In this document: positions 27,811 to 50,624 of the stretch, one piece after another
How the letters are laid out: every line of letters begins with the position of its first letter
How positions within the stretch are numbered: the first letter of the stretch is position 1
Source of the DNA: Allomuricauda sp. NBRC 101325
GTDB taxonomy: Bacteria; Bacteroidota; Bacteroidia; Flavobacteriales; Flavobacteriaceae
Assembly (NCBI RefSeq): GCF_030268205.1
Contig: NZ_BSQF01000001.1
Span: 664,649 to 728,648 of the forward strand
Direction: 5' to 3'
DNA: 64,000 nt
The notes under the pieces: generated by a model
The model's database searches: none
What the model saw: only the letters and a program-made list of their open reading frames with translations
Told to the model about the DNA's origin: nothing
Made by a program: the position numbers and the translations under genes

Positions 27811-27816
27811 ACCTCC

Positions 27817-29226: not shown

Positions 29227-29283
29227 GTAATTGTGGTTTTGGTCAAAAATAAAAATGTGACACCAAAAGTTCAGTGACCAAAG

Positions 29284-31035: not shown

Positions 31036-31077
31036 AAATAGAATGCCCGTGGGCTATTTTCAGTAACAAAGGCTACA

Positions 31078-31847: not shown

Positions 31848-32921
31848 CTATTTTAAGGGAGTTCCCTTTATCTCTTTAGGAATAGGTTGTCCCAATATTT
31901 TTAAAATGGTCGGTGCAAATTGATTGGAGTACAGTTGCTCGTCTTGTTTTACTTCGCCCATGGCCTCTACATCTTTTCCAAAAGTCACGAACCAAACTTG
32001 ACCCGCGCCTTTTACATCACGGCCATGGCCTCTCCAAGTATCCAAAGGTTGGGTTCCCCTCCCGTGGTCGGTGGTGATCATAAAAACGGTCTGATCTTTA
32101 TAGTAATCATCCTGTTGGGTAAATTCCCATAGATCTTTGATCAATGCATCGGTATTGTGAGCCGATTTTAAATAAGCCTGATAATCGCCATCGTGGGCAA
32201 AATCATCGGTTTCGCCATAGGAGATAAAAACCAACTTCGGATGTTCCTTTTTCATGTGCTCCAAAGCATAATGGTGCGTAAAGGCATCCAATCGCACACT
32301 GCCCCAAGGACTCGGAATCTGGTCTTGCAATTCATTTAGGAATTGCTCCTTTTCGGTCAAATCTCCTGTTGCTACTTCAAAACCTGCATTCACAGGAACC
32401 CCAGAACGCTTTTCGTTCACTATAAATGGGAAAACGTCCCAGCTACCAAAGGCCGCCACCTTACCTTTCCCTTCGGATGTATTGTTGAAACGCTCTAAAA
32501 TGGTAGTGTTGGGGTTTTGCATTTTATCATTGCTTCGGATACGGGCATCATCTGCTGTTCCTGTTAAAATTTCGTTGTAACCAGGGTAGGAAAACCACAT
32601 GGAATTGGTCAAGTTTACCTTGCTGCCCAAGTTTCTATTTCCATGTATTTGACCCATTTTCTCCACTTGATTCCAGAAAAAAGGCATCAATGCCACTCTT
32701 CTTTCTGCTGGAGTATCTTTCCAAAAAGCTTCTTTCAACATGTCAACTTCATGGACATAGTCTTTGTTTCCCACCAAAAGGGAATCAGCTCCAGTGAACA
32801 ACTCTTGCCAACGAAAACCATCCAACGTGATCAAAATTACCTTGGTGTCATCCGCACTTTGTGCTTGAATATTGAAAATCGCTGCAAAAGCAGCTATTAA
32901 AAGCAAAATCTTATTTTTCAT
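31848..32921 (-). CDS. Alkaline phosphatase superfamily protein, secreted
   Basis: This 357-aa protein has a signal peptide (MKNKILLLIAAFAAIFNIQAQ). Metal-site segments of the alkaline phosphatase/phosphodiesterase superfamily are visible: ILITLDGFRWQE, the nucleophile region WFSYPGYNEILTG, SYGETDDFAHDGD and ITTDHGRG. It likely hydrolyses phosphate or phosphonate esters in the periplasm. It overlaps the upstream phosphoesterase gene by 11 nt and is the last gene of the susC-led operon. Exact substrate is unknown. Confidence 0.87.
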   Translation of the reverse strand: MKNKILLLIAAFAAIFNIQAQSADDTKVILITLDGFRWQELFTGADSLLVGNKDYVHEVDMLKEAFWKDTPAERRVALMPFFWNQVEKMGQIHGNRNLGSKVNLTNSMWFSYPGYNEILTGTADDARIRSNDKMQNPNTTILERFNNTSEGKGKVAAFGSWDVFPFIVNEKRSGVPVNAGFEVATGDLTEKEQFLNELQDQIPSPWGSVRLDAFTHHYALEHMKKEHPKLVFISYGETDDFAHDGDYQAYLKSAHNTDALIKDLWEFTQQDDYYKDQTVFMITTDHGRGTQPLDTWRGHGRDVKGAGQVWFVTFGKDVEAMGEVKQDEQLYSNQFAPTILKILGQPIPKEIKGTPLK

Positions 32922-34515
32922 TTTCTTCTTGTGTTTTAAATGATGCTATTTCGGACCAATCACTCCAATTTAGGTTTTGGTCACGGTACCTAACCCTCCA
33001 AAAATAGGTGGTGCCCGGTTTTAATCTCTTGGTTGGCTCATCGTTAAGGTCATCGTCTTTTTGACGGTCTTCCTTGTAATACCAGTTTTCAAATTGTTTC
33101 CAGCTGTCCAAGTCCAACTTTTCAAAATCTTTGGTTTGGGATACCTGCCAGTGTGCCGCCGCGTGAAATGCCCCACTCAATGGACTTGTAAATCCACCAG
33201 CTTTCAAGGTAGCAAAATCATCAGTTACCACAACGTTGTTTATTGGTGAGATGACTTTTGGTACCTCAGGCTTCTTTTGCAATCGCCAAATGGTAATGCT
33301 ATCGCGAAGTTCATTTTCTCTGGACTCGATAGTGTTTCCTCTACTGATTCTTTTGATCGTGAATTTTGGATCGTTTCGGTTACCGTCCACTTCAACCATT
33401 ACAAATCCGTATTCGTCTTGGGTAACAGTGAACTCATCGTAATCCCTACCTTCAAATTCACCCCAATTGTCGATGGATCCTCCTGCAGAAGCTACATTAA
33501 CCCATAGATGCTTATGATCTCTGGACTGGCCTCGGGAATAGCCATGCGTATGTCCAAAAAAATGAACACTCGGTTTTCCTGTTTTGGTGGAGAATGCTTC
33601 CAACATCTTTACCACTTTTCCAGTTGATTCTTCTTCCCCTGGAATCCAAAGTTCTGATTTGTGTGGATGGTGCAATTGTGCGAAAACAAAGTCGATATTA
33701 TCATCCTTTTCGGTTTCAGCCAACACTTTTTCCAACCATTGATATTGCTCCCCAAGGTCACGGTAGCCATCATTGGAATTTAAACCGATAATTCGGGTAT
33801 TGCCATAATCTTTGTACCACCAATGTTCGGCATAGGCCGGGGTTCCATTTTCGGGCAAACTGAAATATTTGAAATAGAAAACTGAGTTTCGTTCATGGTT
33901 TCCCAAAACTGGATAAACAGGCACTTCGGCAAAAAGCTTTTGTGAAGGATCAAAGAAATGATCCTTCCATTGGTAATATTGGCTACCGCTCTGGACCAAA
34001 TCCCCAGGTATCATCACCATGGCCAAATTGTCTGGTAATTTACCCCCGTATTCCTTTTCTAAATACTGAAGTAATCCTTGATTCACGATTTCAGAAAACT
34101 TGTTGGGCTGCTGGCTATCGTATTGCATGTCGCTCATAGCAACAATGTTGAAGCTTTCCTCATCACTTGAAAATGGTGGTGTCTTAAACTGGAAAATATC
34201 GGATTTTGACTTTCCTGTTTTTACCCGATAATAGTATTCCGTGAAGCGTTTTAGACCTTCCAATTTAACGGTATGCACCCTAGATTCGGAGAAATTGATA
34301 TCTTCGGCTTTTCCAGAAGTTTTATTGCCCAATTTTTCGGTTGTTCCCCACTCCACAATACTTTCTTCTCCATTGGTGGTTTCCCACATGATCACAATGG
34401 ATGTTGGTTCGGCATCTTGAAGATAAGGTTGCACCAAAATTTGGGGTTCGGTCTGGGCAGCGAGGTGCATCACTCCAGCAAAAAATAGAATGAATAATTG
34501 GTTAATTTTTTTCAT
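32911..34515 (-). CDS. Purple acid phosphatase-like metallophosphoesterase with fibronectin-type domains
   Basis: This 534-aa exported protein (signal MKKINQLFILFFAGVMHLAAQ) has an N-terminal FN3-like domain (about 25-110). A calcineurin-like phosphoesterase follows, with metal motifs MSDMQYD, IPGDLVQ, LGNHERN, LHHPHKS and FGHTHGYS. A C-terminal FN3-like segment ends in TTYFWRVRYRDQNLNWSDW. It resembles purple acid phosphatases in layout. It would release phosphate or cleave phosphodiesters outside the cytoplasm. Its ATG at 34515 shares the base of the preceding gene's stop, so the two are tightly coupled. Confidence 0.88.
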   Translation of the reverse strand: MKKINQLFILFFAGVMHLAAQTEPQILVQPYLQDAEPTSIVIMWETTNGEESIVEWGTTEKLGNKTSGKAEDINFSESRVHTVKLEGLKRFTEYYYRVKTGKSKSDIFQFKTPPFSSDEESFNIVAMSDMQYDSQQPNKFSEIVNQGLLQYLEKEYGGKLPDNLAMVMIPGDLVQSGSQYYQWKDHFFDPSQKLFAEVPVYPVLGNHERNSVFYFKYFSLPENGTPAYAEHWWYKDYGNTRIIGLNSNDGYRDLGEQYQWLEKVLAETEKDDNIDFVFAQLHHPHKSELWIPGEEESTGKVVKMLEAFSTKTGKPSVHFFGHTHGYSRGQSRDHKHLWVNVASAGGSIDNWGEFEGRDYDEFTVTQDEYGFVMVEVDGNRNDPKFTIKRISRGNTIESRENELRDSITIWRLQKKPEVPKVISPINNVVVTDDFATLKAGGFTSPLSGAFHAAAHWQVSQTKDFEKLDLDSWKQFENWYYKEDRQKDDDLNDEPTKRLKPGTTYFWRVRYRDQNLNWSDWSEIASFKTQEENEK

Positions 34516-35885
34516 TAGGCTATAGCGTTGGTTTTTAAAAAGGCACAGTTCAATATTTCAAATGCCTTTTCCAGTTCTTCTCTGGTTATGGTCAATGGTG
34601 GGGATAGTTGCAGTACATTTCCTTTGGAAACCTTAAAACTCAACCCCTGTTTTAAGCATTCGTACATGATTTCCTCGGCTTCCGCGGTCGCTTTTTTCTT
34701 GGTAGAACGATTGGTTACCAATTCAATGCCCCACAAAAGTCCAATACCTCGAATATCCCCGATCAAGGAATATTTTCTGTGCATTCTGTAGAGTGCCTTT
34801 CTCATAAATTCTTGATCCTCTTTTACTTTTTGAAGTAGATTTTCTTCTTCGATCACTTCCAAAAGTGTCAATCCAGCTATGGAACCCAATGGACTTTTTT
34901 CGTGGGTGTAGTGGCCCAGTGAAATATCTCCGAACTTGTTATACTCCTCTCGAGTTACAATGGCAGCTTGTGGAATAATTCCGCCACCAAGGCCCTTACC
35001 CAAGCACAGAATGTCGGGTTCAATACCAAAAAGTTCATAGGCAAACATTTTTCCTGTTCTTCCAAAAGCAATCGGAATCTCATCCAAAATCAGAAGGACT
35101 CCATGTTTTGTGCATAGCTCACGAGCGCCTTTCCAAAACTTCTCGGATGGAATCTGTACATCGGTATTTCGAATGGTCTCTGCCAAAAATGCCCCGATCT
35201 GGTTGTCCTTTTCCAGTACATATTCCAAATATTCGAGGGCTTTGGCCTCGTTCCCTTCAAAAATACCGCGGTAGCTTATTGGAGGAGGAATTCGTTCCAC
35301 TCCAGGCATTAAAGGCCCCATATGCTCCTGAAAGATAGATTCACCACCTACACTGATGGCATCCAAATTGGCTCCGTGAAATGAATCCCAAAAAGAGACC
35401 ACCTTGTGTTTTCCAGTTACGGCACGGGCCAATTTTAACGCAATTCCAATGGCTGAACTGCCATTTGGGGTCAATAAAATTCGGTTGAGCCCTTTGGGCG
35501 TGTAAGATGTTAGTTTTTCTGCAAACTGAATGGCGGTTTCATTGGCATATCGTCGAGTGGAAAATGTCAATCCTTGAAGTTGTTCGGTCAACCGAGCCAC
35601 CATTTTTGGATGTGAAAACCCAATTTGATGCACATTGTTCCCATGAAAATCCAAGTATTTTTTTCCTGATACACTTTCAATGTAGGAGCCTTCACAATTT
35701 TTGAGCACGTCCAAACAAGGGGTCGACATGGATTGATGCATAAAATATTTGGCATCCTTTTCCAGCAGTTCCTTGGTTTCTTCGTTTACTTCGTTTTGCA
35801 ACCACTCCTTTCGTGCGGGAGTCAGGTTGATATCGCCTTCCACAACAGATTCTGAGTTGTGCTTATCGCGCTTTATATGGTCCAT
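34515..35885 (-). CDS. pbfA: PbfA-like (R)-1-hydroxy-2-aminoethylphosphonate ammonia-lyase (class III aminotransferase fold)
   Basis: This 456-aa PLP enzyme has PLP Lys297 in CLGKGLGGG and Asp268 in ILDEI. The segment YFMHQSMSTPCLDVL (47-61) with YLDFHGNNVHQIGFSHP (77-93) matches PbfA enzymes, which I recall as HQSLSTPCL and LDFHGNSVHQ. They eliminate ammonia from hydroxy-aminoethylphosphonate to give phosphonoacetaldehyde. A phosphonatase-like hydrolase encoded at 44430-45104 could then cleave the C-P bond. Other class III transaminases are possible, but the context favours phosphonates. The start overlaps the upstream MBL gene by 23 nt. Confidence 0.78.
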   Translation of the reverse strand: MDHIKRDKHNSESVVEGDINLTPARKEWLQNEVNEETKELLEKDAKYFMHQSMSTPCLDVLKNCEGSYIESVSGKKYLDFHGNNVHQIGFSHPKMVARLTEQLQGLTFSTRRYANETAIQFAEKLTSYTPKGLNRILLTPNGSSAIGIALKLARAVTGKHKVVSFWDSFHGANLDAISVGGESIFQEHMGPLMPGVERIPPPISYRGIFEGNEAKALEYLEYVLEKDNQIGAFLAETIRNTDVQIPSEKFWKGARELCTKHGVLLILDEIPIAFGRTGKMFAYELFGIEPDILCLGKGLGGGIIPQAAIVTREEYNKFGDISLGHYTHEKSPLGSIAGLTLLEVIEEENLLQKVKEDQEFMRKALYRMHRKYSLIGDIRGIGLLWGIELVTNRSTKKKATAEAEEIMYECLKQGLSFKVSKGNVLQLSPPLTITREELEKAFEILNCAFLKTNAIA

Positions 35886-37137
35886 GTTTAGTTAATATTT
35901 CGCGTTCTTCGGATGCATCGTTCAACACATAAATATCATATGTGTCTCCATTGTCGTACACCCGAACAACAATGTGTCCGTTTTGACTTTTATATTGATC
36001 CAACCTGCCACCAATCACATCCTTGGTGCCTTGCAGCATAATGGTTGAAAAAATATCCCGATGACCGGGGTATAATTTTTTTGATGTTATTCTTCGGAGG
36101 ACTTCCTCCCCCGGATGGTCCACTGTCCAGTTTTGTTGGATCCAAACCCGTGGTCGAATGGTCCGAACATAATAGGGATTTTGGGAATCGCGATTGCCAT
36201 GATGGTTCAAAGTTGCCACATCCACAGGACCAACTACTGGCGCCACATTGGATTCCAGTCCGTTGATATCCGTTTCTCCATAGCCATCAATCCCCGCAAT
36301 ATCGCCGCCTGTATAATAGTTGAATTTGCCATAATCTATTCGGATGGCATTGCTCAACGGGTTTTCACCTGGGTATTCGCCATTTTTAAAAAGGGAGTAA
36401 TAGGAATCATCATAACCTGTCCAAATATTTCCATTGGAGGCTATGTTTTGAACTTTAAATTCAGGATACTCCTTTGCATGACGTTGCAAAATAATCTGAT
36501 TGTTACTGCCCACTTGCAAAGCCTCGTTTTCCAACCCAGATTCTTTGGATTGATATCCAATAAACTTCCAATATTCTTTCAAAGTGGGAATCATTCCGTA
36601 GGCATCTGAAACGAATCGTTCTTGGGATTGCACTTTCGCATCCTTTAAATCCAATGGGAAATCGAACCCACGATCAATCAATTTTTTAATGGGAATCAAG
36701 GTACCCACTTCCATAATTCCAGTAAGCTGATATCCTTCTGAAGCTATTTTTCGTAAGGAATCAATCTCCCCAAAATGATCATCGTGGTAATGGGTAATCA
36801 GGGCATAATCCAACCTTCTTTCCTGCTTTTTCGGCAGGAATTGATCTATATAATCCACTATCCATTCGGGGGCTGTTTTGGATCTGTTCGGAACCAACTT
36901 CGCATTTCTGCTTGATGTGGTCCTCGGATGTGACTCGGACATATCCCCAGCATCCACCAACATAGTCGTGCCATCAGGAAATACCATAAAAGTGGCATCA
37001 CCCCTACCCGTGTTGATATGATGGATGTCCAAAAATCCAGGTTGCCAAGCAGGCAAATTTTGGGTTTGCCCCCTGGAAATGGATGTCATCAAAATAGTGA
37101 CGATGAATAGACCAAAATTTTTAAGGTTGAATCGCAT
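35863..37137 (-). CDS. Secreted metallo-beta-lactamase-fold hydrolase (ComEC/Rec2-like)
   Basis: This 424-aa protein has a signal peptide (RFNLKNFGLFIVTILMTSISRG). An MBL-fold domain like the C-terminal part of ComEC shows HHINTGRGDATFMVFPDG, LVDAGD and T-H-Y-H-D-D-H-F-G-E. A later TLNHHGNRDSQNP segment supplies further metal ligands. Such proteins cleave phosphodiesters or other esters. Here it is exported and sits in an operon of extracytoplasmic phosphatases and a phosphonate lyase, so a phospho- or phosphonodiester substrate is likely. It overlaps the lyase gene by 23 nt. Confidence 0.82.
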   Translation of the reverse strand: MRFNLKNFGLFIVTILMTSISRGQTQNLPAWQPGFLDIHHINTGRGDATFMVFPDGTTMLVDAGDMSESHPRTTSSRNAKLVPNRSKTAPEWIVDYIDQFLPKKQERRLDYALITHYHDDHFGEIDSLRKIASEGYQLTGIMEVGTLIPIKKLIDRGFDFPLDLKDAKVQSQERFVSDAYGMIPTLKEYWKFIGYQSKESGLENEALQVGSNNQIILQRHAKEYPEFKVQNIASNGNIWTGYDDSYYSLFKNGEYPGENPLSNAIRIDYGKFNYYTGGDIAGIDGYGETDINGLESNVAPVVGPVDVATLNHHGNRDSQNPYYVRTIRPRVWIQQNWTVDHPGEEVLRRITSKKLYPGHRDIFSTIMLQGTKDVIGGRLDQYKSQNGHIVVRVYDNGDTYDIYVLNDASEEREILTKHGPYKAR

Positions 37138-37139
37138 GC

Positions 37140-38810
37140 TTATTTTGCTCTATACAAATGATTTGCAGGGATGATTTGTTTTGGCGTGCTCGGGCCTTTG
37201 TATTTCACATCCAAATGATAGCCGCCACCTCCATTAAAAAACTCCACACGCACTAAATGTTTTCCTTGGATCAAATCCAACGAACCACTGCGCTCCATCA
37301 CGCCATGGTCTCCATCATTGTCAACAATTTCAATTCCGTTTACGTAAAGTTTGCTACCATCATCGCTATTGGTAAAAAAAGTGTAGTTGCCTTCCTCCAA
37401 AATATCCAAGTAACTTTCAAAAACTACGGCAACTTGCTCTTGTGGCGCATCTTCTGAAAGCGCTTGCTTGTGTGAAAACTCGGTTACAAAACCTTCGTGC
37501 AATGGGCTCAAATTTGAAAAATCGGGCAACTTGGCAATACCGCTAACTTCATAGATTTGAAATTTGACCGCATCCTCTTTTGGTTCAGGAACTATTCTAA
37601 AATTCCCCTCGGCTATAGTACTAACCAATCGACCTTCTTGAAAAATCCCAGCTTTGATAATACTTGTTTCCTTAAGGTAAAAAGTATCTTGGTAAACCTG
37701 ACTGTTCTCCAAAGAGGGCACTTTGTCACCTATGGTGTATCTAATCTCACCCAAATTGTTTGGGTTTTGAATCACAACTGCTACGGAATCCGCTTTAAAA
37801 ACCCCACCAGCAGGTTCAAAATAGCCTGCGTCAGGAAGTATTTTGGGTTGGGTTATTTGTTCTTTGCGCTTGTAGATCAATTTTGGAGCTTCGTTTCCTA
37901 TAAATGCTCCTTTTACGGGTCGACCTATCCAAGCTTGGGGCGTTTTCAACCCCATGGCATAGGCAACGGTCGATGCATTGTCGTATTGATACACAGTTTC
38001 TTCAATAGTGTATCCTTTTTTGATACCGGCACCATATAAAATGAAAGGGATTTCCATTTCGGCCAAGCTTTCTCCACCATGACCAAAACCCAATCCACCA
38101 TGATCGGCAGATACAATGAACATGGTTTTTTCGAAGATCCCTGATTGTTTGGTGGCATCCACTATTTCTGCAATCAATATATCGGCTTTTTCCACTGATT
38201 TGTAGTATTCAGGACTTCCATGCCCCAATGCATGGCCTGCATGATCTACATGATCCAAGTGTACAAAAGTGAATTTTGGGGTATGCTCCTTGATGTAATT
38301 TACCGCTGCTTGGGTGGTTTTGTCCTCATGGTCCCCATCAATATCAAAATCAACATCGGATTTTTCGAACAAACGACCAAATCCATCCCAATCGTAAATG
38401 GCTCCTACGTGTGCTTCAGGTTGCTGGTCTTTAAAAAGGGTAAAGATGGTTGGAAAAGTCCCATTCTCGGTTTCCACTATGGGTGGTAATTGATGATCGA
38501 ATTTTTCCCATCCGTTGGAGGTTACACCATGTTGTTCGGTATCGGCCCCCATAATCATACTGGCCCAGTTTGGACTGGAACTGGATGGAAGCACGGATCT
38601 TGCATGTAGGGTCGCGGCTCCGTTTTGGATCATAGAATCCATCATGGGCGTATGGGCCTTTTGAATTCCATTGGGGCTCATACCATCTATTCCTATAATG
38701 ATGATGTGCTCAATCCCCTTCGGAGTTACATCTTGATCTGAAGAACAAGACCACAGGAACAAAGTTCCCATGGTCATGATCATTGCTATATTAAACTTCT
38801 TAAAACACAT
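37140..38810 (-). CDS. Alkaline phosphatase-family phosphodiesterase lipoprotein with PA14-like domain
   Basis: This protein of about 556 aa uses the ATG at 38810; a TTG two codons upstream is less likely. The lipobox TLFLWSC places it on the cell surface or in the periplasm. The catalytic part has IIIIGIDGMSPNG, the nucleophile region SSSSPNWASMIMGA, FVHLDHVDHAGH and VSADHGGLGFGHGG, as in type I phosphodiesterase/nucleotide pyrophosphatases. The C-terminal 130 residues resemble a PA14 domain (YTFFTNSDDGSKLYVNG), often a glycan-binding module. That suggests a phosphorylated or phosphonylated glycan as target. It lies 9 bp after the susD stop. Confidence 0.85.
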   Translation of the reverse strand: MCFKKFNIAMIMTMGTLFLWSCSSDQDVTPKGIEHIIIIGIDGMSPNGIQKAHTPMMDSMIQNGAATLHARSVLPSSSSPNWASMIMGADTEQHGVTSNGWEKFDHQLPPIVETENGTFPTIFTLFKDQQPEAHVGAIYDWDGFGRLFEKSDVDFDIDGDHEDKTTQAAVNYIKEHTPKFTFVHLDHVDHAGHALGHGSPEYYKSVEKADILIAEIVDATKQSGIFEKTMFIVSADHGGLGFGHGGESLAEMEIPFILYGAGIKKGYTIEETVYQYDNASTVAYAMGLKTPQAWIGRPVKGAFIGNEAPKLIYKRKEQITQPKILPDAGYFEPAGGVFKADSVAVVIQNPNNLGEIRYTIGDKVPSLENSQVYQDTFYLKETSIIKAGIFQEGRLVSTIAEGNFRIVPEPKEDAVKFQIYEVSGIAKLPDFSNLSPLHEGFVTEFSHKQALSEDAPQEQVAVVFESYLDILEEGNYTFFTNSDDGSKLYVNGIEIVDNDGDHGVMERSGSLDLIQGKHLVRVEFFNGGGGYHLDVKYKGPSTPKQIIPANHLYRAK

Positions 38811-38819
38811 TGGCAAGCC

Positions 38820-40274
38820 TTAGTTTTCCCACCAAACTTTGGTAGTGATTTTGTCACCACCAATTCTGTTTACCGCTTCGGTATAGTTGGCATTGTTCAA
38901 AGATTCCTCGTTACTTGGGTACTCAAATCTACTTGGGTATACATCGTAGAATGCATCCGGTCCTGGGGCAATGGTTGAAGGGAATCCAGTTCTTTTGTAT
39001 TCAATAAAACCTTGGTAGTCAGTGTAGAACAGGTTGATGTACTTCTGAGTCATGATGGTTTCCAACGAATTGTCAAAAGCAACACCTGCACTTGTCAAAT
39101 AATCCGCTGGCAATTCAACTCCCCAATATTCAAAATTGGCTGTTACACCTGTCTCATAAAAAGATTGGGCATTTCCAGAAATCCAACCTCTTTGTGCCGC
39201 CTCGGCCAAAATAAACTGTACTTCGGAATACAACATCAACCTTGCTTGGTTGGTATTGGGCTGATAATAGAAGTAATCAATATTGAATTTGGATAGGTAG
39301 GCATCCCCACCTTTATAGGTGTAGGCCGGTCCATCCACAACCCCGTTCAACATCCCCACGATCTCAGGAGTTCCGGCTTCAGCTGAAGTAGCTGTAGGAT
39401 CCGCAAAGAATTCCAATCTTGGGTCGTTCAAACCTTCCAATAAGGTTACAAAGTGCTCAGAAATCCTGTATTCGTTGTAGGAACCAACTCGGTATACGGA
39501 CTCCTCGGTTACTGGATGTGCATCTGGATTGGAAGCCAAGAAGGTTTGTACCGCATTGTCATCATTGGATTCCATGATTGGGTTTTGTGCAGGGTTTGCA
39601 TAAATCGCAGAAATAACGCTAGAGGCTGTTGAAGGAGCAACTTCGCTCAAACGAAGTGCCAGTCTTAATCTTAGTGAGTTGGCAAATTTTCTCCACAGGT
39701 CCAAATCACCATCAAACAACAAATCTCCTTTAATTTGGGTTAGGTCAGAACCGCCCAATATAGCATTGGCCTCTGCCAATTCGGCCAACATACCCGAGTA
39801 AATGTCTTCTTGGGTATCGTACATTGGGGTATAGTTTTCCTCACTGGCCTGGTTTACTTCGGAGTAAGGAATATCCCCCCACATATCGGTCAAGATGCTG
39901 AACGCCCAAGATTGCATGATCTTGGAAACGGCAATGTAACTTTTCAAATCGTTTTCATTGGCCAATTTTTCCAGTTCCTTGGCATCCCTAATGGAGTAAT
40001 AATAACTGTTCCATGCACCACTTTCATCCCCCCAATCGAACAAATCGAAAGAGGTAAATACGATACGGGCACCGTATTGTCCCATTAAGTTTCCTTCACT
40101 CCAAGATCCTCCGACAGCATTTCTAATAGCTTGTCTCTGAAGGTTGGTCAAAAGCAATTCCGGGTTTTGATTGATGTTCAATGCAACATCCGGATTATCG
40201 TTGCTCACGTCAAACTTGTCACAAGACCAAAGGGTCGCCGCAAGTACTGTCGCTATAAAAAATATTTTTTTCAT
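38820..40274 (-). CDS. SusD/RagB-like outer-membrane lipoprotein
   Basis: This 484-aa protein has a lipobox (ATLWSC, Cys18) and the alpha-helical TPR-like body of SusD-like proteins (YSIRDAKELEKLANE, SYIAVSKIMQSWAFSILTDMWGDIPYSE). The family binds the substrate above its SusC partner and forms a lid. It is encoded 19 bp after susC. The binding surface cannot be read from sequence. The downstream genes suggest a phosphorus-containing glycan, lipid or small phosphonate conjugate. Confidence 0.93.
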   Translation of the reverse strand: MKKIFFIATVLAATLWSCDKFDVSNDNPDVALNINQNPELLLTNLQRQAIRNAVGGSWSEGNLMGQYGARIVFTSFDLFDWGDESGAWNSYYYSIRDAKELEKLANENDLKSYIAVSKIMQSWAFSILTDMWGDIPYSEVNQASEENYTPMYDTQEDIYSGMLAELAEANAILGGSDLTQIKGDLLFDGDLDLWRKFANSLRLRLALRLSEVAPSTASSVISAIYANPAQNPIMESNDDNAVQTFLASNPDAHPVTEESVYRVGSYNEYRISEHFVTLLEGLNDPRLEFFADPTATSAEAGTPEIVGMLNGVVDGPAYTYKGGDAYLSKFNIDYFYYQPNTNQARLMLYSEVQFILAEAAQRGWISGNAQSFYETGVTANFEYWGVELPADYLTSAGVAFDNSLETIMTQKYINLFYTDYQGFIEYKRTGFPSTIAPGPDAFYDVYPSRFEYPSNEESLNNANYTEAVNRIGGDKITTKVWWEN

Positions 40275-40293
40275 GTTATTGTTGTTAACCTGA

Positions 40294-43200
40294 TTAAAAT
40301 TCTACGTTGATTGCAAATCCTAAGCTACGAGTAGTAGGTACTGTGGCATTTTCTACCCCTGGAACATAGCTTCCACCTCCGAAAGACAATAGTTCTGGGT
40401 CGCCATGGTTGTAATCTTTGGCCCACAACCAAAGGTTGGTTCCGATCAAGGAGAAGCTTAATTTTCTGATATCATCTCCCCCGAACAAGCTTGTTGGGAA
40501 GTCATAAGTTAATCTTGCTTCTCTCAATTTGATGAAAGTGGCATCATAAATACCTTCAGTATCGTTATCTCTTCTGTACCTGTTGTTATGGTAGGCATTG
40601 GCAGCTACAATTACGTTGTTGGGCACATATTGGCCATCTTGCAACATAACACCGTCTCCAATAATACCATCGGTCTGGGCAACGCCATTACCATCGGTAT
40701 AAGAAAGTCCTGAATCTGTAATACCTGGGTGTGGACCTCCATATTCTGGCGAACGACCCCAAAGTGTTTCCACAACGTTACCTGATGTGGCTGCAATCAA
40801 ACGAGTTCTTGAAAGCAATTCTCCACCTTGTCTCCAATCAAAAAGGAAGTTTAACGATACATTTTTGAATGAAATGGTGTTGTTCCATCCCAAAGTAAAG
40901 TCTGGGTTAAAGTTTCCAACTTTTCTCAAGGTGTTGTCCTGTTGGACCAAACCATTATTAAAGATCACTTCACCATAATAAGGACTGTCTTCATCCTCTA
41001 CTTTCACCAAGCCTGTACCCCACATATCACCAAGTGAACCACCTTCTTCGGCAATCAAAGAAATACCATTGCCTCCATATTGATATCTTTCAACACCATC
41101 GGCCAACTCCAAAACTTTGTTTCTGTTTAAACCGAAGTTGAAGGAGGTATTCCAATTAAAATCATTGTTCGAAATCGGAGTTGCGCTCAACATGATCTCC
41201 AAACCTTGGTTTCTGATTTTTCCAGCGTTGATCGTTCTTGCCGTTTTACCTGAAGTAATTGGCAAATCGATATCTAAAATCTGGTTTTTAGAAACGGTGT
41301 TATAATAGGTGGCATCCAATGAAAGCTTGTTGTTGAAGAACCTTAAATCGGTACCGAACTCGTAAGAAGTCTGAATCTCTGGTTTCAAATCGAAGTTTGG
41401 CAAGGTGTTGGTAGGACTTGCTGTTGGATTGCTTCCCACAGGAGTACCCAATGCGTAATATTCAGAAAGTCTATAGGCATCGGTATCACTACCAACTTGT
41501 GCCCAACCTCCACGTAGTTTGGCAAAACTCAATACATCCTGACCGCTAAAATCGAATAAATCGGATAATACCACACTCAAAGATGCCGATGGGTAGAAGT
41601 ATGAGTTATTTTGTTCTGGCAAAGTAGAAGACCAGTCGTTACGTGCTGTAAGATCTAGGTAAATACTATTGTTCCATCCTAATTGGGCAAAAGCGTACAA
41701 AGAGTTGATCTGCTTTTCTGGACGGCTGGTACGTTGCACCAATGCTCCATCTACATTCGAGAAAGAGTAAATTCCAGGAATCAAAAGCTTGTTGGCCATT
41801 AAAGAATTGTAATGGTTCTTTTGTACCATTCTGTTTCCACCAAAGTTGGCATTCACATGGAACTTATCATTGAATGTTTTATCATAGGTCAACAAGAAAT
41901 CCAAGTTGGTCTCTTGGAAGTTGATCTTATCTTCCCTGAACTGACCGTTTGGAAAGCGTTGGGTAGAGTAAGCTCTTTTAATGGTTCTGTATTCCGAGAA
42001 GAAATCACGACCGCCACGTACCATAAATTTGAAATCATCGCTGATATCGTAGGTAGCGGATAGGTTACCAATGATCCTGTCCTTGGCCAAGGCATTGGTA
42101 TTCTCATACATGGTAAAGTATGGGTTATCGTGGTAGTTATAGTTGTAGTTGAACTGTTGGAAACCTTCCAAGCCATCTTGCCAGTAGTTTCTTAAGTTCT
42201 TTACATTCACTTGTTGTCCCCACCAAACAAACAAATACATTACAGATTCTGTTCCATAACCGTTTACGTGACGGTTATCTGAATCGGACCGGATGTAGTT
42301 GATCTTGGAAGACACCTTTAATCTATCCGATAATTGATAATCTCCAGATGCAGAAATCGTATTTCTCCTTAAGTCTGTATTTGGAACAATACCCTTATTG
42401 TCCAAGTTGGTATAACTCACGCGGTAGTTACCATTATCGTTGGAACCGTAGAATGAAACGGTATTGATCAATGTTCTACCAGTTTCCATAAACTCTTCGG
42501 CAGGGTTTCCACCATAAACAAATGGAGTTGGTGTAATGGTGCCACGACGATTTAAGTCTACCCCTGAAGAACCAAGAACATAATCCAAACCGTGTACATC
42601 ACCTCCACGTAGCCCGTTGGAAGTTGGCGAATCGTGCTGAGCACGCAAGGTTCCATCCAAAAGTGGCCCCCAAGATTCATCCACACCATCATAGGTTCCG
42701 CTACCGTAACCATCTACAAACTGAAAATCAAAGTTTTTACCTTGACCATAAACTCCTTGATATTCTGGAGCTTTCAAAACACTTTCAAAAGTGGTCTTAG
42801 AGCTAAAGCTAACCCCTCCCTTACGACCTCTACCGGATTTGGTTGTGATGATTACCGCACCGTTGGCAGCTCTGGAACCGTAAAGTGCCGTTGCGTTCGC
42901 ACCTTTAAGCACGGAAATGGATTCTACATCGTCCGGGTTGATCTCTGCCGCACCGTTACCATAATCCAAGTTCATGTTGGAGGCTCCCCCCAACGTATTT
43001 GTTCTTGTATCGGTGGTATTATTAATAGGAATACCGTCTACGATAAATAAGGGTTGGTTATCACCTTGCATGGAAGAATACCCACGAATTACCACAGACG
43101 AAGATTGTCCAGGTCCTGTTCCGTTGGTCACTACCTGAACACCGGCAGTCCGACCTGATAATGTACTCACCGTGTTGGTACTTGTGGATTGTGAAATTTC

Positions 43201-43581
43201 CTCTCCACCCACTTTTTGCACCGAATAACCCAACGACTCTTCATCCCTGGTAATGTTCAAAGCGGTTACAATTACCTCATCCAATTGTTGGGAGTCTGGT
43301 TGAAGCACAACTGTAATAGAGGTTTGCCCCACAGTATTTACCTCTTGGGCGATGTACCCAATGTAAGAAACCACTAAAATTTCACCACCATTTGGCAATG
43401 TAATCTCAAAGTTTCCATCAAAGTCGGTAGCTACCCCATTGGCACTACCTTTTACAACAACAGAAGCACCTGGTAAGGGAATGTTGTCACCGTCTACAAC
43501 CTTACCTGTAAAAGTAGATTGGGAATACCCAATAATACTTACAGTAAGAGCAAGTAAAAACGTAAGAATTGATTTTTTCAT
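40294..43581 (-). CDS. SusC/RagA-type TonB-dependent outer-membrane receptor
   Basis: This 1095-aa protein has a signal peptide (MKKSILTFLLALTVSIIGYS), a carboxypeptidase-regulatory-like domain (about 24-100), a TonB plug with the SusC motifs SVLKGANATALYGSRAANG, and a beta-barrel ending in aromatic NVEF. It imports bulky ligands delivered by SusD using TonB energy. It heads an operon with SusD, three secreted or lipoprotein phosphoesterases, an MBL hydrolase and a phosphonate lyase. This partnership suggests a phosphonate- or phosphate-bearing substrate in place of a plain polysaccharide, since no glycoside hydrolase is present. Confidence 0.95.
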   Translation of the reverse strand: MKKSILTFLLALTVSIIGYSQSTFTGKVVDGDNIPLPGASVVVKGSANGVATDFDGNFEITLPNGGEILVVSYIGYIAQEVNTVGQTSITVVLQPDSQQLDEVIVTALNITRDEESLGYSVQKVGGEEISQSTSTNTVSTLSGRTAGVQVVTNGTGPGQSSSVVIRGYSSMQGDNQPLFIVDGIPINNTTDTRTNTLGGASNMNLDYGNGAAEINPDDVESISVLKGANATALYGSRAANGAVIITTKSGRGRKGGVSFSSKTTFESVLKAPEYQGVYGQGKNFDFQFVDGYGSGTYDGVDESWGPLLDGTLRAQHDSPTSNGLRGGDVHGLDYVLGSSGVDLNRRGTITPTPFVYGGNPAEEFMETGRTLINTVSFYGSNDNGNYRVSYTNLDNKGIVPNTDLRRNTISASGDYQLSDRLKVSSKINYIRSDSDNRHVNGYGTESVMYLFVWWGQQVNVKNLRNYWQDGLEGFQQFNYNYNYHDNPYFTMYENTNALAKDRIIGNLSATYDISDDFKFMVRGGRDFFSEYRTIKRAYSTQRFPNGQFREDKINFQETNLDFLLTYDKTFNDKFHVNANFGGNRMVQKNHYNSLMANKLLIPGIYSFSNVDGALVQRTSRPEKQINSLYAFAQLGWNNSIYLDLTARNDWSSTLPEQNNSYFYPSASLSVVLSDLFDFSGQDVLSFAKLRGGWAQVGSDTDAYRLSEYYALGTPVGSNPTASPTNTLPNFDLKPEIQTSYEFGTDLRFFNNKLSLDATYYNTVSKNQILDIDLPITSGKTARTINAGKIRNQGLEIMLSATPISNNDFNWNTSFNFGLNRNKVLELADGVERYQYGGNGISLIAEEGGSLGDMWGTGLVKVEDEDSPYYGEVIFNNGLVQQDNTLRKVGNFNPDFTLGWNNTISFKNVSLNFLFDWRQGGELLSRTRLIAATSGNVVETLWGRSPEYGGPHPGITDSGLSYTDGNGVAQTDGIIGDGVMLQDGQYVPNNVIVAANAYHNNRYRRDNDTEGIYDATFIKLREARLTYDFPTSLFGGDDIRKLSFSLIGTNLWLWAKDYNHGDPELLSFGGGSYVPGVENATVPTTRSLGFAINVEF

Positions 43582-43837
43582 TTGTTGAGTATTAGTAAAA
43601 TTGTGTTAATTATTTATCAACAAATATCCAACTCATGAGTTAAGGCATGCATTCATCCAGATTAAAAAAATGATATGGAAAGGTTAAAAGAAACTGTTAA
43701 ATGTTATGTTAATATTATTTACAAATATTCAAATTATTAAAACCCTTTGAAATCTATCAAACTATAATATATCCTTGCTTTATAATGGATTAATCAATTT
43801 TTTTAGTAACTATGACTTTGATTAAAACATTATAAAT

Positions 43838-43850
43838 ACTAAAATTTAGT
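43838..43850. promoter_or_regulatory. 13-bp palindrome before the XRE-cupin gene (candidate operator)
   Basis: ACTAAAATTTAGT is a perfect palindrome around a central A, 12 bp before the regulator's ATG. It lies in the divergent control region between the regulator and susC. Related TTAGTAAAA strings occur at 43592-43600 and at 47634-47642. The region is AT-rich, so chance is possible. Confidence 0.35.
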
Positions 43851-43862
43851 TTTAACAATAAA

Positions 43863-44429
43863 ATGGAAGATTACTTAATTGGTATCGGTAAGCGAATCAA
43901 GGAAATACGCAAAAGCAATAATAAAACCATAAGCGATGTTGCACTCTCTGCTGGGGTAACTGCCGGGCTTATTTCCCGCATTGAAAATGGACGAACCATT
44001 CCCTCACTTCCCGTTTTTTTGAAAATTGTTGGCGCTCTGGAAACCGAAATGACCGATTTTTTTGATGGCATTCCCAAAGCACTTGGTCAAAACTTTTTGG
44101 TAACCCGTAAAAATGACCAATCCATTATTGAAAAGGAGGACGAAGCTGTTGGCTTTACCTATAATTATATTTTTGGCAAGCAATTGAACTCTGTCGGATT
44201 TGAGAGTGTACTATTGGAAGTACTGCCCAACTCGGAACGTGAAAAGGTAGTAACCGATGCCTTTGAGTTCAAATACATTCTTACTGGGGAATGTTATTAC
44301 GAAATTGGCGACCAGGAAGTCCTTTTAAAAGAGGGAGATTCTATTTTCTTTGATGGAAGAATCCCCCATGTCCCCATTAATAGAGGTTCTGTTCCCTCTA
44401 AAATGTTGGTGGTCTATTTCTTTATATAA
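43863..44429 (+). CDS. XRE-cupin transcriptional regulator
   Basis: This 188-aa protein has an N-terminal helix-turn-helix (about 8-62, IKEIRKSNNKTISDVALSAGVTAGLISRIENG). A C-terminal cupin barrel (about 110-185) has FEFKYILTGECYYEIGDQEVLLKEGDSIFFDG and a metal-type H in RIPHVPINRG. Such two-domain regulators sense a small metabolite and act locally. It is divergent from susC and converges with the phosphonatase gene with no gap. I infer control of both flanking phosphonate operons. Confidence 0.88.
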   Translation: MEDYLIGIGKRIKEIRKSNNKTISDVALSAGVTAGLISRIENGRTIPSLPVFLKIVGALETEMTDFFDGIPKALGQNFLVTRKNDQSIIEKEDEAVGFTYNYIFGKQLNSVGFESVLLEVLPNSEREKVVTDAFEFKYILTGECYYEIGDQEVLLKEGDSIFFDGRIPHVPINRGSVPSKMLVVYFFI

Positions 44430-45104
44430 TTAAGGAAACAATATTTCAGCCAAATCGGCTAAAGAGTCCAAAATTATAGTAGGTTCGGCGGTTGCCAATT
44501 GCTCACGAGTTTGGGCGCCAGTCAACACCCCAACGGTAATTCCGCAGTTGGCATTTTTACCCTCTTCAATATCAATAACCGAGTCTCCTGCTTTTAATAC
44601 TTTTTCGGCATCTGTGATTTCAAATAGCTCCATGGCCTTGTCAATCATTTCGGAAGAGGGCCTTCCTTTTACCACATCATCGGCCGTGATCAATGCATCA
44701 ATTTGATTGCCCGGCTCCCAACCCAATTTATCCAGCAAGGATTGGGCCGTTTTTTTATCGTAACCCGTATTCAACACCACTTTTACACCGTTTGATTTCA
44801 AAAATTTGAATAGGTCTTCAACCCCATCATAAGAAGTAACAACAAGATTAGCATAGGCTTCCTCCAACATACCTTTAAAATCTTCGAAAACTTTATGGGC
44901 ATCAATGGAAGTATTTTGAGTCTGTACCAAAATATCAGCAATGGCCTTGAATTTTTCTTTACCAGCCCCAAATTCCAAAACCGTTTCCAAAGTCACTTCA
45001 ACACCATGTTTGGCCAAGGCATCCCTTACCGTTTTGTACACCACATTATCTTCGTTCACCGTGGTTCCTGCCATATCAAAAACAGCTAGTTGTATCTCTT
45101 TCAT
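44430..45104 (-). CDS. Phosphonatase-like HAD hydrolase (PhnX-related)
   Basis: This 224-aa HAD enzyme has nucleophile D10 in VFD-M-A-G-T-T. Ala at the usual second Asp position is a hallmark of phosphonoacetaldehyde hydrolases. The cap has F-G-A-G-K49-E-K-F, where PhnX carries its Schiff-base Lys. Later, NTGYDKKTAQ, KGRPSSEMI and KAGDSVIDIEEG complete the HAD motifs. It matches the TIGR03351 phosphonatase-like type, predicted to split phosphonoacetaldehyde or an analogue into an aldehyde and phosphate. The ATG overlaps the upstream oxidoreductase by 4 nt. Confidence 0.85.
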   Translation of the reverse strand: MKEIQLAVFDMAGTTVNEDNVVYKTVRDALAKHGVEVTLETVLEFGAGKEKFKAIADILVQTQNTSIDAHKVFEDFKGMLEEAYANLVVTSYDGVEDLFKFLKSNGVKVVLNTGYDKKTAQSLLDKLGWEPGNQIDALITADDVVKGRPSSEMIDKAMELFEITDAEKVLKAGDSVIDIEEGKNANCGITVGVLTGAQTREQLATAEPTIILDSLADLAEILFP

Positions 45105-46273
45105 AAATTGATTTTCTGTCGATTAAAAATTTTGGCAATATTCTTTTTGGAGAATCCTGCACTTCCTGTCATTCCCTTTCCTCCGATACCAGTTACAATA
45201 TGAATGTTGTTGTCGATGGTCTTTTGAAAAATATCGCTGTTCTTACATTGGGAATACATGCCATACCATCTATTTTGAATTTGATAGGTGGGCAAATCAA
45301 ATATCTTTTGGGCTTCGGCAATCATAAAATTGTCGATATCCATGTCTAGGTCGTACCCCAAATCTTCCTTGTTGGAGGCATCTGCATATTGATGAGAATC
45401 CCCTAAAATGATCGAGCCATCCATTGCCTGTTTAAATAGGATATGTACTCCCCATTTTTTCTGAAGACTGTCTTCTGATTCATTCGCCTTTATTTGTGCA
45501 AAGGATGGACATTCATGAAAAGCTTCGTACCTGCGAATGGACCAACCTGTTAAAATGGAACCTTTCAAATTATAATTTTCTTGAGGTTTGGTCTGCATCA
45601 TCTGCAATTTTGAAACTTCAAGATCGCTGGAAGCAAACATATCTGGGTATAGATTTTTAAAATCACTGCCATTACAGATGATTACTTTTTTGCCAAATAC
45701 TTCTTCTTTCTTGGAATTTTGAACGGAGACCCACTCTCCTTGACTATCACATGAAACCACCGGAAAATTGAACTTTATTTCCAGTCCTTTTTGGGCCACT
45801 AAATATTCCTGAAGCTTATGAATCATGATTCTGGGCTCCACCGTAACTTCTTCTGGAAAATAAAGTCCAGCCATCACATAATCCTTTCGCAACCCAGGGT
45901 ATTTATCGAGACACTCCTTTTTTGTCAACATCTTGGAAGCATAATCGTTCCCGTTATTGATTCCTCGCAGCTCCACCAACAATCTTTCCTCCTCTTCATT
46001 CGATGCCAAATACACACTTCCATTTTGACGAATGCTGATATCAAATTGGGATTGAATCTCTTTATAAATTCTGAGGCTTTCTCTTCCGAATTTTTGCCAT
46101 TTGGAATTCATTCCTGAAGGCACCACCTGACCAAAGTTTTGGGTCGTGGCCCCTTTGGCATAGTTGTCCTTTTCTACCAAGCATACCTTAAGACCCAATT
46201 CCATGGCATGATACGCATGAAACGTTCCCAAAATGCCCCCACCAATTATGACGGCATCGTATCTATTTTCCAT
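45101..46273 (-). CDS. TIGR03364-type FAD-dependent oxidoreductase (phosphonate-associated)
   Basis: This 390-aa protein has an N-terminal Rossmann motif DAVIIGGGILGTFHAYHAMELG and a D-amino-acid-oxidase-like body ending TGIGGKGMTGSAGFSKKNI. The family is known to accompany phosphonate degradation genes; relatives oxidise aminoethylphosphonate or its N-methyl derivatives. Its job here is probably to make phosphonoacetaldehyde from an amine precursor for the downstream hydrolase. It overlaps the hydrolase gene by 4 nt and the DUF5690 gene by 11 nt. Confidence 0.85.
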   Translation of the reverse strand: MENRYDAVIIGGGILGTFHAYHAMELGLKVCLVEKDNYAKGATTQNFGQVVPSGMNSKWQKFGRESLRIYKEIQSQFDISIRQNGSVYLASNEEEERLLVELRGINNGNDYASKMLTKKECLDKYPGLRKDYVMAGLYFPEEVTVEPRIMIHKLQEYLVAQKGLEIKFNFPVVSCDSQGEWVSVQNSKKEEVFGKKVIICNGSDFKNLYPDMFASSDLEVSKLQMMQTKPQENYNLKGSILTGWSIRRYEAFHECPSFAQIKANESEDSLQKKWGVHILFKQAMDGSIILGDSHQYADASNKEDLGYDLDMDIDNFMIAEAQKIFDLPTYQIQNRWYGMYSQCKNSDIFQKTIDNNIHIVTGIGGKGMTGSAGFSKKNIAKIFNRQKINL

Positions 46274-47543
46274 AATTTAATTGCTTGTTGATTTGTTCTG
46301 TTTTGTACCGTGCTCCAAAATGGAAAAACAACATTACTGTGGACACGATTCCGATAAGCGCTACGGCATAGGTTCCGTAAACGAAGAAGTTGAGCCATGA
46401 TACATTGGCCTGTCCAAAATTCTTATAAAGCAACACCAAAACACTGCCCACATAACCGAAAGCATCAGCAATGTAAATGAGAAAACCTGAATTACCTCTC
46501 ACTTTAAAAGTGGCAATAAAACGGTCGAAAAACAGACAGTTGAATGGCACATAACAGATATAAAGTCCAAAACCCGTGCTTACCATCCAAACAAAAGGAT
46601 CTAACACACCCATTTGAAACATAATGGTTGAGCCTGCCAATACCACAGTACCCAATAACAATAAAACGTGGTAGGTAAGTAAAGCCTTAAAATTGTTTTT
46701 GATATAAAATATGGCACCAATGATCAACAATACCACAATAGCAATGATGATTTCAGAAGTTGAAAAAACGGAGACATCCCCTTCATAGCCGATACTATCC
46801 CAAAGTTCACGGGCAAAATTGTCACGAAAATCTCTAAAGGCAGTTAAAAACGTATAGAAAAGCACAACCAAGAGTAATGGAAAAAGGAATTGTTTCACCA
46901 AGTTTTTCCTGTCTTCGGCTGTCATTGGAATACGTTCTGTTCTATTCGCAATGTCCTCTTCTGTAGGTGCAGGCACTTTTTGCAGCGCATAGGAACATAT
47001 TAAAAGCGGAATAAAAAATAAGGCGCCTGTCACCGAGGGCATCCAAAACTCACTTACCCCCCAAGAAGTCATCACATAAAGTCCTACCGATTTAACCACT
47101 CCACTGGAAACAATAAAACTAGAGGACAAGACCACGCCCAAAATATCGGTAAAACGTCTTCCCTCAACATAAGAAAACACTATGCCCCAGATCATCCCCA
47201 AAGGCAATCCATTAAAAAACATGAAAACCATATTATAGGGAGCTGGTACAATACCGAACAAAATCAAGGAAACTTCAGCCATGGCAATCAACGAAATAAG
47301 GTAAAGTAACCTGCGATTGGGCTGTAGCTCAGAAATTACCTTGATGCCTATAAATTTGGAAAGCGCATAACCCAAAACTTGGATGATCACTAAAAGAATC
47401 TTGTAGTTGATGCCCATAAAGGCCATGCCCTCAAATGTGGCCACCGAAAATGGTTTCCGAAAGGCATACATGCAAAAGTAGGTGCCAAAAGCAGCCAAGG
47501 AGGCGTGTAGCACAAAAACTAAATTCGACTGCTTTTTACCCAT
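46263..47543 (-). CDS. DUF5690 family MFS-like membrane protein
   Basis: This 426-aa integral membrane protein has about 12 spans, with an MFS-like layout (SLAAFGTYFCMYAFRKPFS at the start and GNSGFLIYIADAFGYVGSV late). DUF5690 has no known substrate. It is the first gene of the three-gene phosphonate operon, so import across the inner membrane of an aminophosphonate is the simplest guess. It lies on the opposite strand from the xylose operon and shares its control region. Confidence 0.82.
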   Translation of the reverse strand: MGKKQSNLVFVLHASLAAFGTYFCMYAFRKPFSVATFEGMAFMGINYKILLVIIQVLGYALSKFIGIKVISELQPNRRLLYLISLIAMAEVSLILFGIVPAPYNMVFMFFNGLPLGMIWGIVFSYVEGRRFTDILGVVLSSSFIVSSGVVKSVGLYVMTSWGVSEFWMPSVTGALFFIPLLICSYALQKVPAPTEEDIANRTERIPMTAEDRKNLVKQFLFPLLLVVLFYTFLTAFRDFRDNFARELWDSIGYEGDVSVFSTSEIIIAIVVLLIIGAIFYIKNNFKALLTYHVLLLLGTVVLAGSTIMFQMGVLDPFVWMVSTGFGLYICYVPFNCLFFDRFIATFKVRGNSGFLIYIADAFGYVGSVLVLLYKNFGQANVSWLNFFVYGTYAVALIGIVSTVMLFFHFGARYKTEQINKQLNYGK

Positions 47544-47738
47544 AGGATCAAATAAGTTTACAAATAATAAAATTATGTTTCAAATTACTCAAATTTATAA
47601 GAAACCACCCACTTTTTTTAGATTAAATAATTGTTAGTAAAAAATTATTTTACATCGTAGATTTAGAATTTTATTTCCCACTAAAATTTGAATTCATTAA
47701 TAAATACCTATTTTAATTGCATTTTTTAATAACAGTAC

Positions 47739-49223: not shown

Positions 49224-49236
49224 ACAAACAACGATT

Positions 49237-50562: not shown

Positions 50563-50624
50563 TTAACAATCAAACTAATCTTATTGACTTTTAACCCAAG
50601 GTCAAGACATACAAATTTTATTTT

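Follow-up and report, generated by a model that had tools for sequence, protein, structure and literature searches.

The 64,000-nucleotide stretch of Allomuricauda sp. NBRC 101325 DNA analysed here (the window; genome size 3.69 Mb) carries a locus at 31848-47543 that is probably an aminophosphonate utilisation unit, consisting of two operons and one XRE-cupin regulator and analogous to a polysaccharide utilisation locus. A SusC-SusD outer-membrane pair (SusCD) is joined to secreted phosphoesterases and to cytoplasmic-looking enzymes of carbon-phosphorus (C-P) bond chemistry, and no glycoside hydrolase or other carbohydrate-active enzyme (CAZyme) Pfam family was found among the 11 genes. By sequence, the phosphonate assignment is firm at the family level. 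The cargo of SusCD would be a phosphonolipid or phosphonoglycan. The individual C-P enzymes are already known; the novelty lies in their combination with SusCD and in the DUF5690 protein. An open reading frame (ORF) check confirmed the following 11 genes, all but one on the minus strand.

40294-43581, minus: SusC-like TonB-dependent outer-membrane transporter, 1095 amino acids (aa); PF00593, PF07715, PF13715 (TonB receptor, Plug, CarbopepD_reg_2).
38820-40274, minus: SusD-like surface lipoprotein, 484 aa; PF12771, 309.8 bits; lipobox-like LWSC by eye.
37140-38816, minus: AP2, lipoprotein of nucleotide pyrophosphatase/phosphodiesterase (NPP) type, 558 aa; PF01663, 102.5 bits, with Fn3_assoc and PA14.
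35863-37137, minus: secreted metallo-beta-lactamase-fold (MBL) hydrolase, 424 aa; weak PF00753 / ComEC-type match.
34515-35885, minus: PbfA; NF049939, 719.8 bits, cut-off 525.
32911-34515, minus: secreted purple-acid-type phosphoesterase (PAP), 534 aa; PF16656 and PF00149.
31848-32921, minus: AP1, secreted enzyme of the alkaline phosphatase (AP) superfamily, 357 aa; PF01676/PF00884.
43863-44429, plus: XRE-cupin regulator, divergent from susC, 188 aa; HTH_3 and Cupin_2.
44430-45104, minus: PhnX-like HAD hydrolase, candidate phosphonoacetaldehyde hydrolase, 224 aa; TIGR03351, 235.9 bits, cut-off 218.9.
45101-46273, minus: PbfD-type FAD-dependent oxidase of 2-aminoethylphosphonate (AEP) and N-methyl-AEP, 390 aa; TIGR03364, 419.7 bits, cut-off 285.1.
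46263-47543, minus: DUF5690 membrane protein, candidate inner-membrane aminophosphonate transporter, 426 aa; PF18943, 559.9 bits.

The operon from susC to AP1 (43581-31848, minus strand) is tightly packed, with intergenic gaps of -23 to +19 bp, and pbfA sits among the genes of secreted enzymes with flanking gaps of -23 and -1 bp. By eye, the N termini of SusD and AP2 are lipoprotein-like and those of AP1, PAP and the MBL protein secreted-like, while PbfA, PbfD and the PhnX-like protein look cytoplasmic. The susC and XRE genes are divergent with 281 bp between them, and the DUF5690, PbfD and PhnX-like genes overlap by 11 and 4 bp. A first-pass annotation, made from the sequence alone, had described a susC-susD operon continuing into two AP-superfamily, purple-acid-type, MBL and PbfA genes; coordinates and Pfam or curated models confirmed it, weakly for the MBL protein (PF00753 22.5 bits, just under the cut-off of 22.7). 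The second operon that it placed across the XRE-cupin gene (DUF5690, TIGR03364-type oxidase, PhnX-like) was borne out by family matches, and its remark that glycoside hydrolases are missing agrees with the Pfam scan of the 11 genes.

PbfA, PbfD and the PhnX-like hydrolase all scored above the cut-offs of their curated models. PbfA also passed the PRK06082 "aspartate aminotransferase family" model (711.4 versus 467); an ordinary class-III transaminase was rejected on the specific NF049939 score, which is far over the cut-off, and the PbfA-like identity proposed in the first-pass annotation thus held. PbfA catalyses the conversion of (R)-1-hydroxy-2-aminoethylphosphonate (R-HAEP) to phosphonoacetaldehyde (PAA) (PMC8154272; PMC12366243). 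PbfD enzymes oxidise N-methyl-AEP to PAA, and PbfD2 takes AEP too (PMC10590968). For this gene the TIGR03364 family of the earlier label stood, and the plain name oxidase is outdated, as PbfD1, which carries the TIGR03364 annotation, is a member of the N-methyl-AEP/AEP oxidase group (PMC10590968).

The PhnX-like protein reached 98.7-104.4 bits with the classical phosphonatase model TIGR01422, below the cut-off of 220. In the alignment, the lysine of its FGAGK motif shares a column with the lysine of GLLK in PhnX, and this column holds R in the PhnX entry 2ioh. We take the GLLK lysine to be Lys53, the Schiff-base lysine, and 2ioh to be its mutant. For a wider comparison, relatives were scanned with PbfA and the loci of the best 80 of 587 were examined; the species are related, so the loci are not independent observations. 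The phosphonatase lysine and the FDMAGT motif were kept in all 56 PhnX-like ORFs recovered from them. Within the Allomuricauda genome, other PhnX candidates peaked at 32.4 bits (cut-off 220), neither PhnW (best 53.6 versus 360.8) nor PhnA (41.8 versus 407.55) passed its cut-off, and PhnZ and phosphoenolpyruvate (PEP) mutase gave no match. Since PhnW, PhnX, PhnA and PhnZ are missing by this search, which did not include C-P lyase, PAA hydrolysis would fall to the PhnX-like protein. This leaves a putative self-contained PAA route in the locus, with HAEP entering via PbfA and (N-methyl-)AEP via PbfD, followed by the PhnX-like hydrolase. Phosphonate biosynthesis was considered and rejected; the locus is taken as catabolic because the genome has no PEP mutase match.

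Both operons appear to form a single unit: DUF5690 keeps its place beside PbfA, the operons can run together, and a common 10-bp box precedes each of them. DUF5690 was present in 28/28 genomes searched (from 30 of the best 80 loci) and adjoined the PbfA locus in each of them when coordinates were compared by eye. In 6/80 best loci (Leeuwenhoekiella L048, L050-L052; Flavobacterium L030, L046) the genes of DUF5690, PbfD and the PhnX-like protein lie directly behind the first operon on the same strand. The box was located at the following positions.

43718-43727, minus: promoter box TATTTGTAAA in the susC-XRE intergenic region, exact match.
43590-43599, strand not assigned: degenerate copy near susC with one mismatch, position derived by hand from the sequence.
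47557-47566, minus: promoter box TATTTGTAAA before DUF5690, exact match.

Exact TATTTGTAAA was found in 35/35 susC-XRE intergenic regions, the window's own included (shuffles mean 0.5, max 2). Upstream of DUF5690 it was exact in 20/28 related regions (shuffle mean 0.22) and present with at most one mismatch in 27/28 (shuffle mean 5.06); two of the 30 loci were not parsed, some assumed starts lie inside the gene, and the species are again related and not independent. The single miss was L204, where DUF5690 is an additional copy on a different contig. The whole window has two exact boxes, one per operon promoter, versus 0.54 expected, and two or more copies arose in 9/100 shuffles. A genome search for TTTAYTATTTGTAAA with at most one mismatch gave 6 matches, of which one was exact and lies before DUF5690, versus 3 for the reversed control; therefore only the exact form of the box is telling. 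In an initial set of regions upstream of DUF5690, mostly from Dyadobacter, 6/24 had the box (shuffles 0.1), and the exact box was absent in 14/16 Dyadobacter loci and 7/8 PhnZ-type loci. The box is a trait of Flavobacteriaceae loci. The XRE-cupin protein presumably binds it. The Bacteroidota -7 promoter element is TAnnTTTG, and the box may be a promoter element rather than an operator.

The association of susCD with pbfA, which the first-pass annotation had suggested looking for by synteny, was found in relatives: SusC, SusD, AP2 and PbfA follow in this order on one strand in 48/80 best loci (intervening ORFs possible, as in L026). All or part of the present locus is also found in five Maribacter loci (L037, L042, L043, L045, L047). 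At the Kriegella locus L026, SusCD, AP2 (a 324-aa piece) and PbfA continue into PhnA, PhnY and PhnW, the last over the cut-off of TIGR03301 and not of TIGR02326. This locus also holds a GlpT-like permease 26.5% identical to E. coli GlpT, and no DUF5690 gene turned up within 10 kb of the locus. An AEP permease of the organophosphate antiporter (OPA) type, AepP, was reported from the same Kriegella species and proven in Pseudomonas (Murphy et al., PMC8316502); the L026 permease is presumably the AepP gene. Sixteen Dyadobacter loci (L064-L074, L076, L077, L079-L081) combine PbfA, a PhnX-like protein, a PbfD-like protein (27-29% identical) and DUF5690.

A second view was taken from DUF5690. Among 395 evenly sampled genomes of the class, which included the Allomuricauda genome, PbfA was over the cut-off in 5 and DUF5690 in 56, this genome being counted in both. 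Twenty DUF5690 neighbourhoods (no more than 8 kb on either side, chosen mostly among high scorers) contained a PbfD-like gene in 12 (that of L149 is a generic FAD amine oxidase), a PhnX-like gene in 11, and XRE, PhnZ, and SusC and/or SusD in 8 each; AP1 homologues were present in 7. The four neighbourhoods L151, L164, L165 and L167 had none of PbfD-like, PhnX-like, XRE, AP1, PhnZ, SusC/D and PHP-domain proteins. The HD proteins are PhnZ-type, with TIGR03276 scores of 199.5-217.6 around the cut-off of 214.6, exceeded in 3/8 (L157, L158, L162); that of L157 matched PDB PhnZ with 172.5 bits. The neighbourhoods that carry SusCD come from three further families of the class (f16, f36, f41), whose loci combine SusCD with PhnZ or with PhnW/PhnY/PhnA. 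L149 has SusD, AP1, PhnZ, PhnA (496 versus 407.55), PhnY (665.1 versus 635.65), PhnW (485.1 versus 400.8) and DUF5690 together. PhnZ and PbfA are alternative HAEP enzymes described as mutually exclusive (PMC8154272), and the occurrence of PhnZ in 8/20 DUF5690 neighbourhoods but 0/80 best PbfA loci matches this exclusion. These comparisons support that the linkage of SusCD to putative C-P enzymes recurs beyond this genome.

The predicted model of the DUF5690 protein (mean pLDDT 88.1, pTM 0.87) clearly has the fold of a major facilitator superfamily (MFS) protein, which adds to the transporter-like label of the first-pass annotation. Its top Foldseek match was human G6PT/SLC37A4 (E 5.6e-8), which we take to be an OPA member; the VIA comparison with SLC37A4 gave Z 33.3, rmsd 3.2, 362 aligned residues and 18% identity, followed by DgoT (Z 32.0), NorA and OCT1 (31.3) and GlpT (28.8). 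An affiliation with the OPA family is suggested by the model. No paper on DUF5690 was found in the literature search. That DUF5690 is phosphonate-specific was rejected as too strong, given 56/395 genomes over the cut-off versus 5/395 for PbfA. A PHP-domain phosphoesterase lies near DUF5690 in 7/20 neighbourhoods (L153, L159, L160, L161, L162, L163, L168), three of them without a nearby C-P enzyme, and was HisJ-type in the one case scanned with NCBIfam. This suggests that part of the DUF5690 family serves another organophosphate substrate.

Two SusD Pfam families, to which the search was confined, returned 13 distinct SusD ORFs in the 3.69-Mb genome; therefore a random gene seldom adjoins SusD, which speaks against chance as the source of the ordered SusC-SusD-AP2-PbfA set in 48/80 best loci, although these are from related species. 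Between loci L034 and L010 most proteins are nearly identical (PbfA 97%, XRE 96%, PhnX-like 94%, PAP 93%, MBL 90%, AP1 84%), whereas SusC and SusD are only 53% and 40% identical. The SusD proteins of L010 and Leeuwenhoekiella L048 share 79% identity, whereas PbfA of L048 is 71% identical. The divergence of SusC and SusD amid such neighbours indicates that the pair was replaced in place, and at least 4 SusD groups were found at this locus type in relatives. The exchange would fit receptors matched to different carriers of one head group; an alternative is escape from phages using the receptor. The carrier of the aminophosphonate could be a lipid or a glycan. HAEP was reported from Bdellovibrio stolpii membranes and was first isolated from Acanthamoeba polysaccharides (PMC8154272). 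At the PhnZ-type locus L157, a 927-aa protein (L157:11614-14397) with PF04185 phosphoesterase and beta-propeller (Lactonase) matches is encoded between SusD and AP1, which is a weak hint at a lipid carrier.

AP2 is the candidate releasing enzyme. At what we take to be the NPP nucleophile position, each of the 27 sequences in the alignment has P(S/T)SSSxNW, except six Dyadobacter rows with TS(A/S)SSQNW. A formylglycine phosphonate monoester hydrolase was not supported, as the CxPxR motif that we presume for such enzymes is not found at this position in the 27 sequences. The MBL gene is missing from many relatives' loci.

In the proposed mechanism, SusCD would bring a conjugate that carries an aminophosphonate through the outer membrane, and the AP2 lipoprotein together with AP1, PAP and the MBL enzyme, all three secreted, would free R-HAEP, AEP or N-methyl-AEP. 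The DUF5690 protein, OPA-like by fold and placed by context, may then move the freed aminophosphonate into the cytoplasm. There PbfA (from HAEP) and PbfD (from N-methyl-AEP/AEP) would both yield PAA, as established for tested family members, and the PhnX-like hydrolase, given its conserved lysine and no alternative enzyme, would split the C-P bond into acetaldehyde and phosphate. One XRE-cupin regulator would govern both operons. The interpretation of the first-pass annotation is supported in this form, with the phosphonolipid or phosphonoglycan cargo of SusCD still a matter of inference. A broader proposal, to which we lean slightly less than to its opposite, is that Bacteroidota have widespread "phosphonate utilisation loci", in which SusCD take up phosphonolipids or phosphonoglycans, the head group is stripped in the periplasm and imported by DUF5690, a family so far without an assigned role, C-P modules (PbfA, PhnZ, PbfD/PhnX-like, PhnWYA) are interchangeable, and SusCD are exchanged to match the carrier.

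Several observations weigh against these readings. For DUF5690, neither phmmer nor a profile search found a homologue among PDB sequences, the non-OPA MFS proteins DgoT, NorA and OCT1 fit the model better than GlpT, and hhalign paired YAFRKPF of DUF5690 with YLVRKNF of GlpT (the Arg45 region) at a probability of 2.3%, so that no link to GlpT was detected at the sequence level. C-P enzymes were absent in 7/20 DUF5690 neighbourhoods; among these 7, the neighbours of L151, L159 and L163 were scanned with Pfam and the rest compared with the query proteins alone. The other 13/13 sampled genomes of the family had neither DUF5690 nor PbfA above the cut-off, and the locus is therefore patchy. Co-directional SusCD recognisable with the query proteins was found in only 2/16 Dyadobacter loci (L073, L079), PbfA stood alone in 11/80 best loci, and PbfD and PhnX-like genes were absent within 10 kb in five Arenibacter loci (L029, L031, L032, L035, L057). 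Outside the family, five PbfA places over the cut-off in 4 genomes (L169-L173, 40-60% identical) had none of the other ten proteins nearby save one weak SusC match. The AP2 model matches NPP phosphodiesterases, sulfatases, PafA and phosphonate monoester hydrolases with similar scores (Z 25-27), so the fold does not separate a diesterase from a sulfatase. Finally, free AEP is small, and a 2023 review, which names neither TonB nor Bacteroid-, presumes porin entry of phosphonates (PMC10574752); SusCD is not needed for free AEP. Separately, with an identity of just 40-43%, PbfA of L171-L173 may have another function.

The strongest rival, which we regard as unlikely, is that the cytoplasmic enzymes use free aminophosphonates, while SusCD, AP1, AP2 and PAP perform general scavenging of organic phosphate and are neighbours since both supply phosphate. 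Scavenging suits PAP and the AP-superfamily enzymes, whose usual substrates are phosphate esters, and also the 14/16 Dyadobacter PbfA loci without recognisable co-directional SusCD. Flavobacterium Pus systems, moreover, join SusCD with phosphodiesterases and phosphatases (PMC8115612). However, scavenging does not account well for pbfA wedged among the secreted-enzyme genes, for the common box before both operons, or for the Kriegella locus, where SusCD, AP2 and PbfA run on into PhnA, PhnY and PhnW. SusC and/or SusD also occurred in 8/13 DUF5690 neighbourhoods with a C-P enzyme versus 0/7 without (Fisher p = 0.015, from a hand-built table with kinship ignored).

A role of the SusCD pair as a glycan (laminarin) importer with phosphonate genes as incidental neighbours is highly improbable, given the recurrent linkage of SusCD to C-P enzymes and 11 genes without a glycoside hydrolase. 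It comes from Maribacter forsetii, in which a SusCD pair next to an alkaline phosphatase, an FAD-dependent oxidoreductase and a phosphonatase-like hydrolase was the most up-regulated one on laminarin versus the casamino-acid control and was read as a laminarin importer (PMC11345257). Judging from the five other Maribacter loci, this pair presumably belongs to the same locus type. The pair was produced on glucose too, and according to the paper none of the SusC or SusD genes has a nearby CAZyme in the same reading direction (PMC11345257). For growth on sugar, 2 g/L of it was added to the control medium, which contains 0.3 g/L casamino acids (PMC11345257), and induction by either sugar may also fit a raised nitrogen or phosphorus demand.

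On one flank, divergent from DUF5690, 47739-52274 (plus strand) encodes an FGGY-family carbohydrate kinase, a sodium:solute symporter and a third ORF taken for xylose isomerase, which had no match in the Pfam scan; this looks like an unrelated pentose operon. On the other side, 27430-31710 (minus strand) encodes an MBL-rhodanese protein and a SulP sulfate permease by Pfam, together with small rhodanese-like and Crp-like ORFs labelled by eye (the Crp-like ORF had no Pfam match), and likely belongs to sulfur metabolism.

If the aminophosphonate reading is true, conjugated phosphonates have a dedicated, active entry through the outer membrane where porin diffusion was presumed, DUF5690 gains a role, Bacteroidota gain a phosphorus/nitrogen source, and the M. 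forsetii pair might be reinterpreted.

The first-pass annotation knew of no PUL-like phosphonate system. No SusCD phosphonate system was described in the titles and abstract openings surveyed (supplements, including the AepP neighbourhoods of PMC8316502, and most subscription papers lay outside the survey), and no paper linking PhnZ with TonB in Bacteroidota was found; a PUL-like phosphorus system without phosphonate enzymes, Pus, is already known (PMC8115612). These Flavobacterium "phosphate utilisation systems" (PusCD, PUS I-IV) are the closest known system. As here, SusCD of PUS I and II are co-located with phosphodiesterases/phosphatases and not with CAZymes (PMC8115612). In contrast, the present locus has cytoplasmic C-P enzymes, DUF5690 and an XRE-cupin regulator, and its SusD falls in PF12771, while pf07980/pf14322 are given for PusD1 and PusD2 (PMC8115612). 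The phnWX and phnWYA clusters for AEP, with PbfA and PbfD, likewise converge on PAA before hydrolysis (PMC8154272, PMC10590968), and the locus resembles the PbfD2-PhnX route without PhnW (PMC10590968); here a TIGR03351 protein replaces PhnX, and SusCD, secreted esterases and DUF5690 lie in the locus. Like AepP, DUF5690 is an MFS protein of suggested OPA type near phosphonate genes (PMC8316502), but it lacks detectable sequence similarity to GlpT. With a polysaccharide utilisation locus the present one shares adjacent SusC-SusD followed by secreted hydrolases, an inner-membrane transporter and a regulator, but in place of CAZymes it has phosphoester and C-P enzymes.

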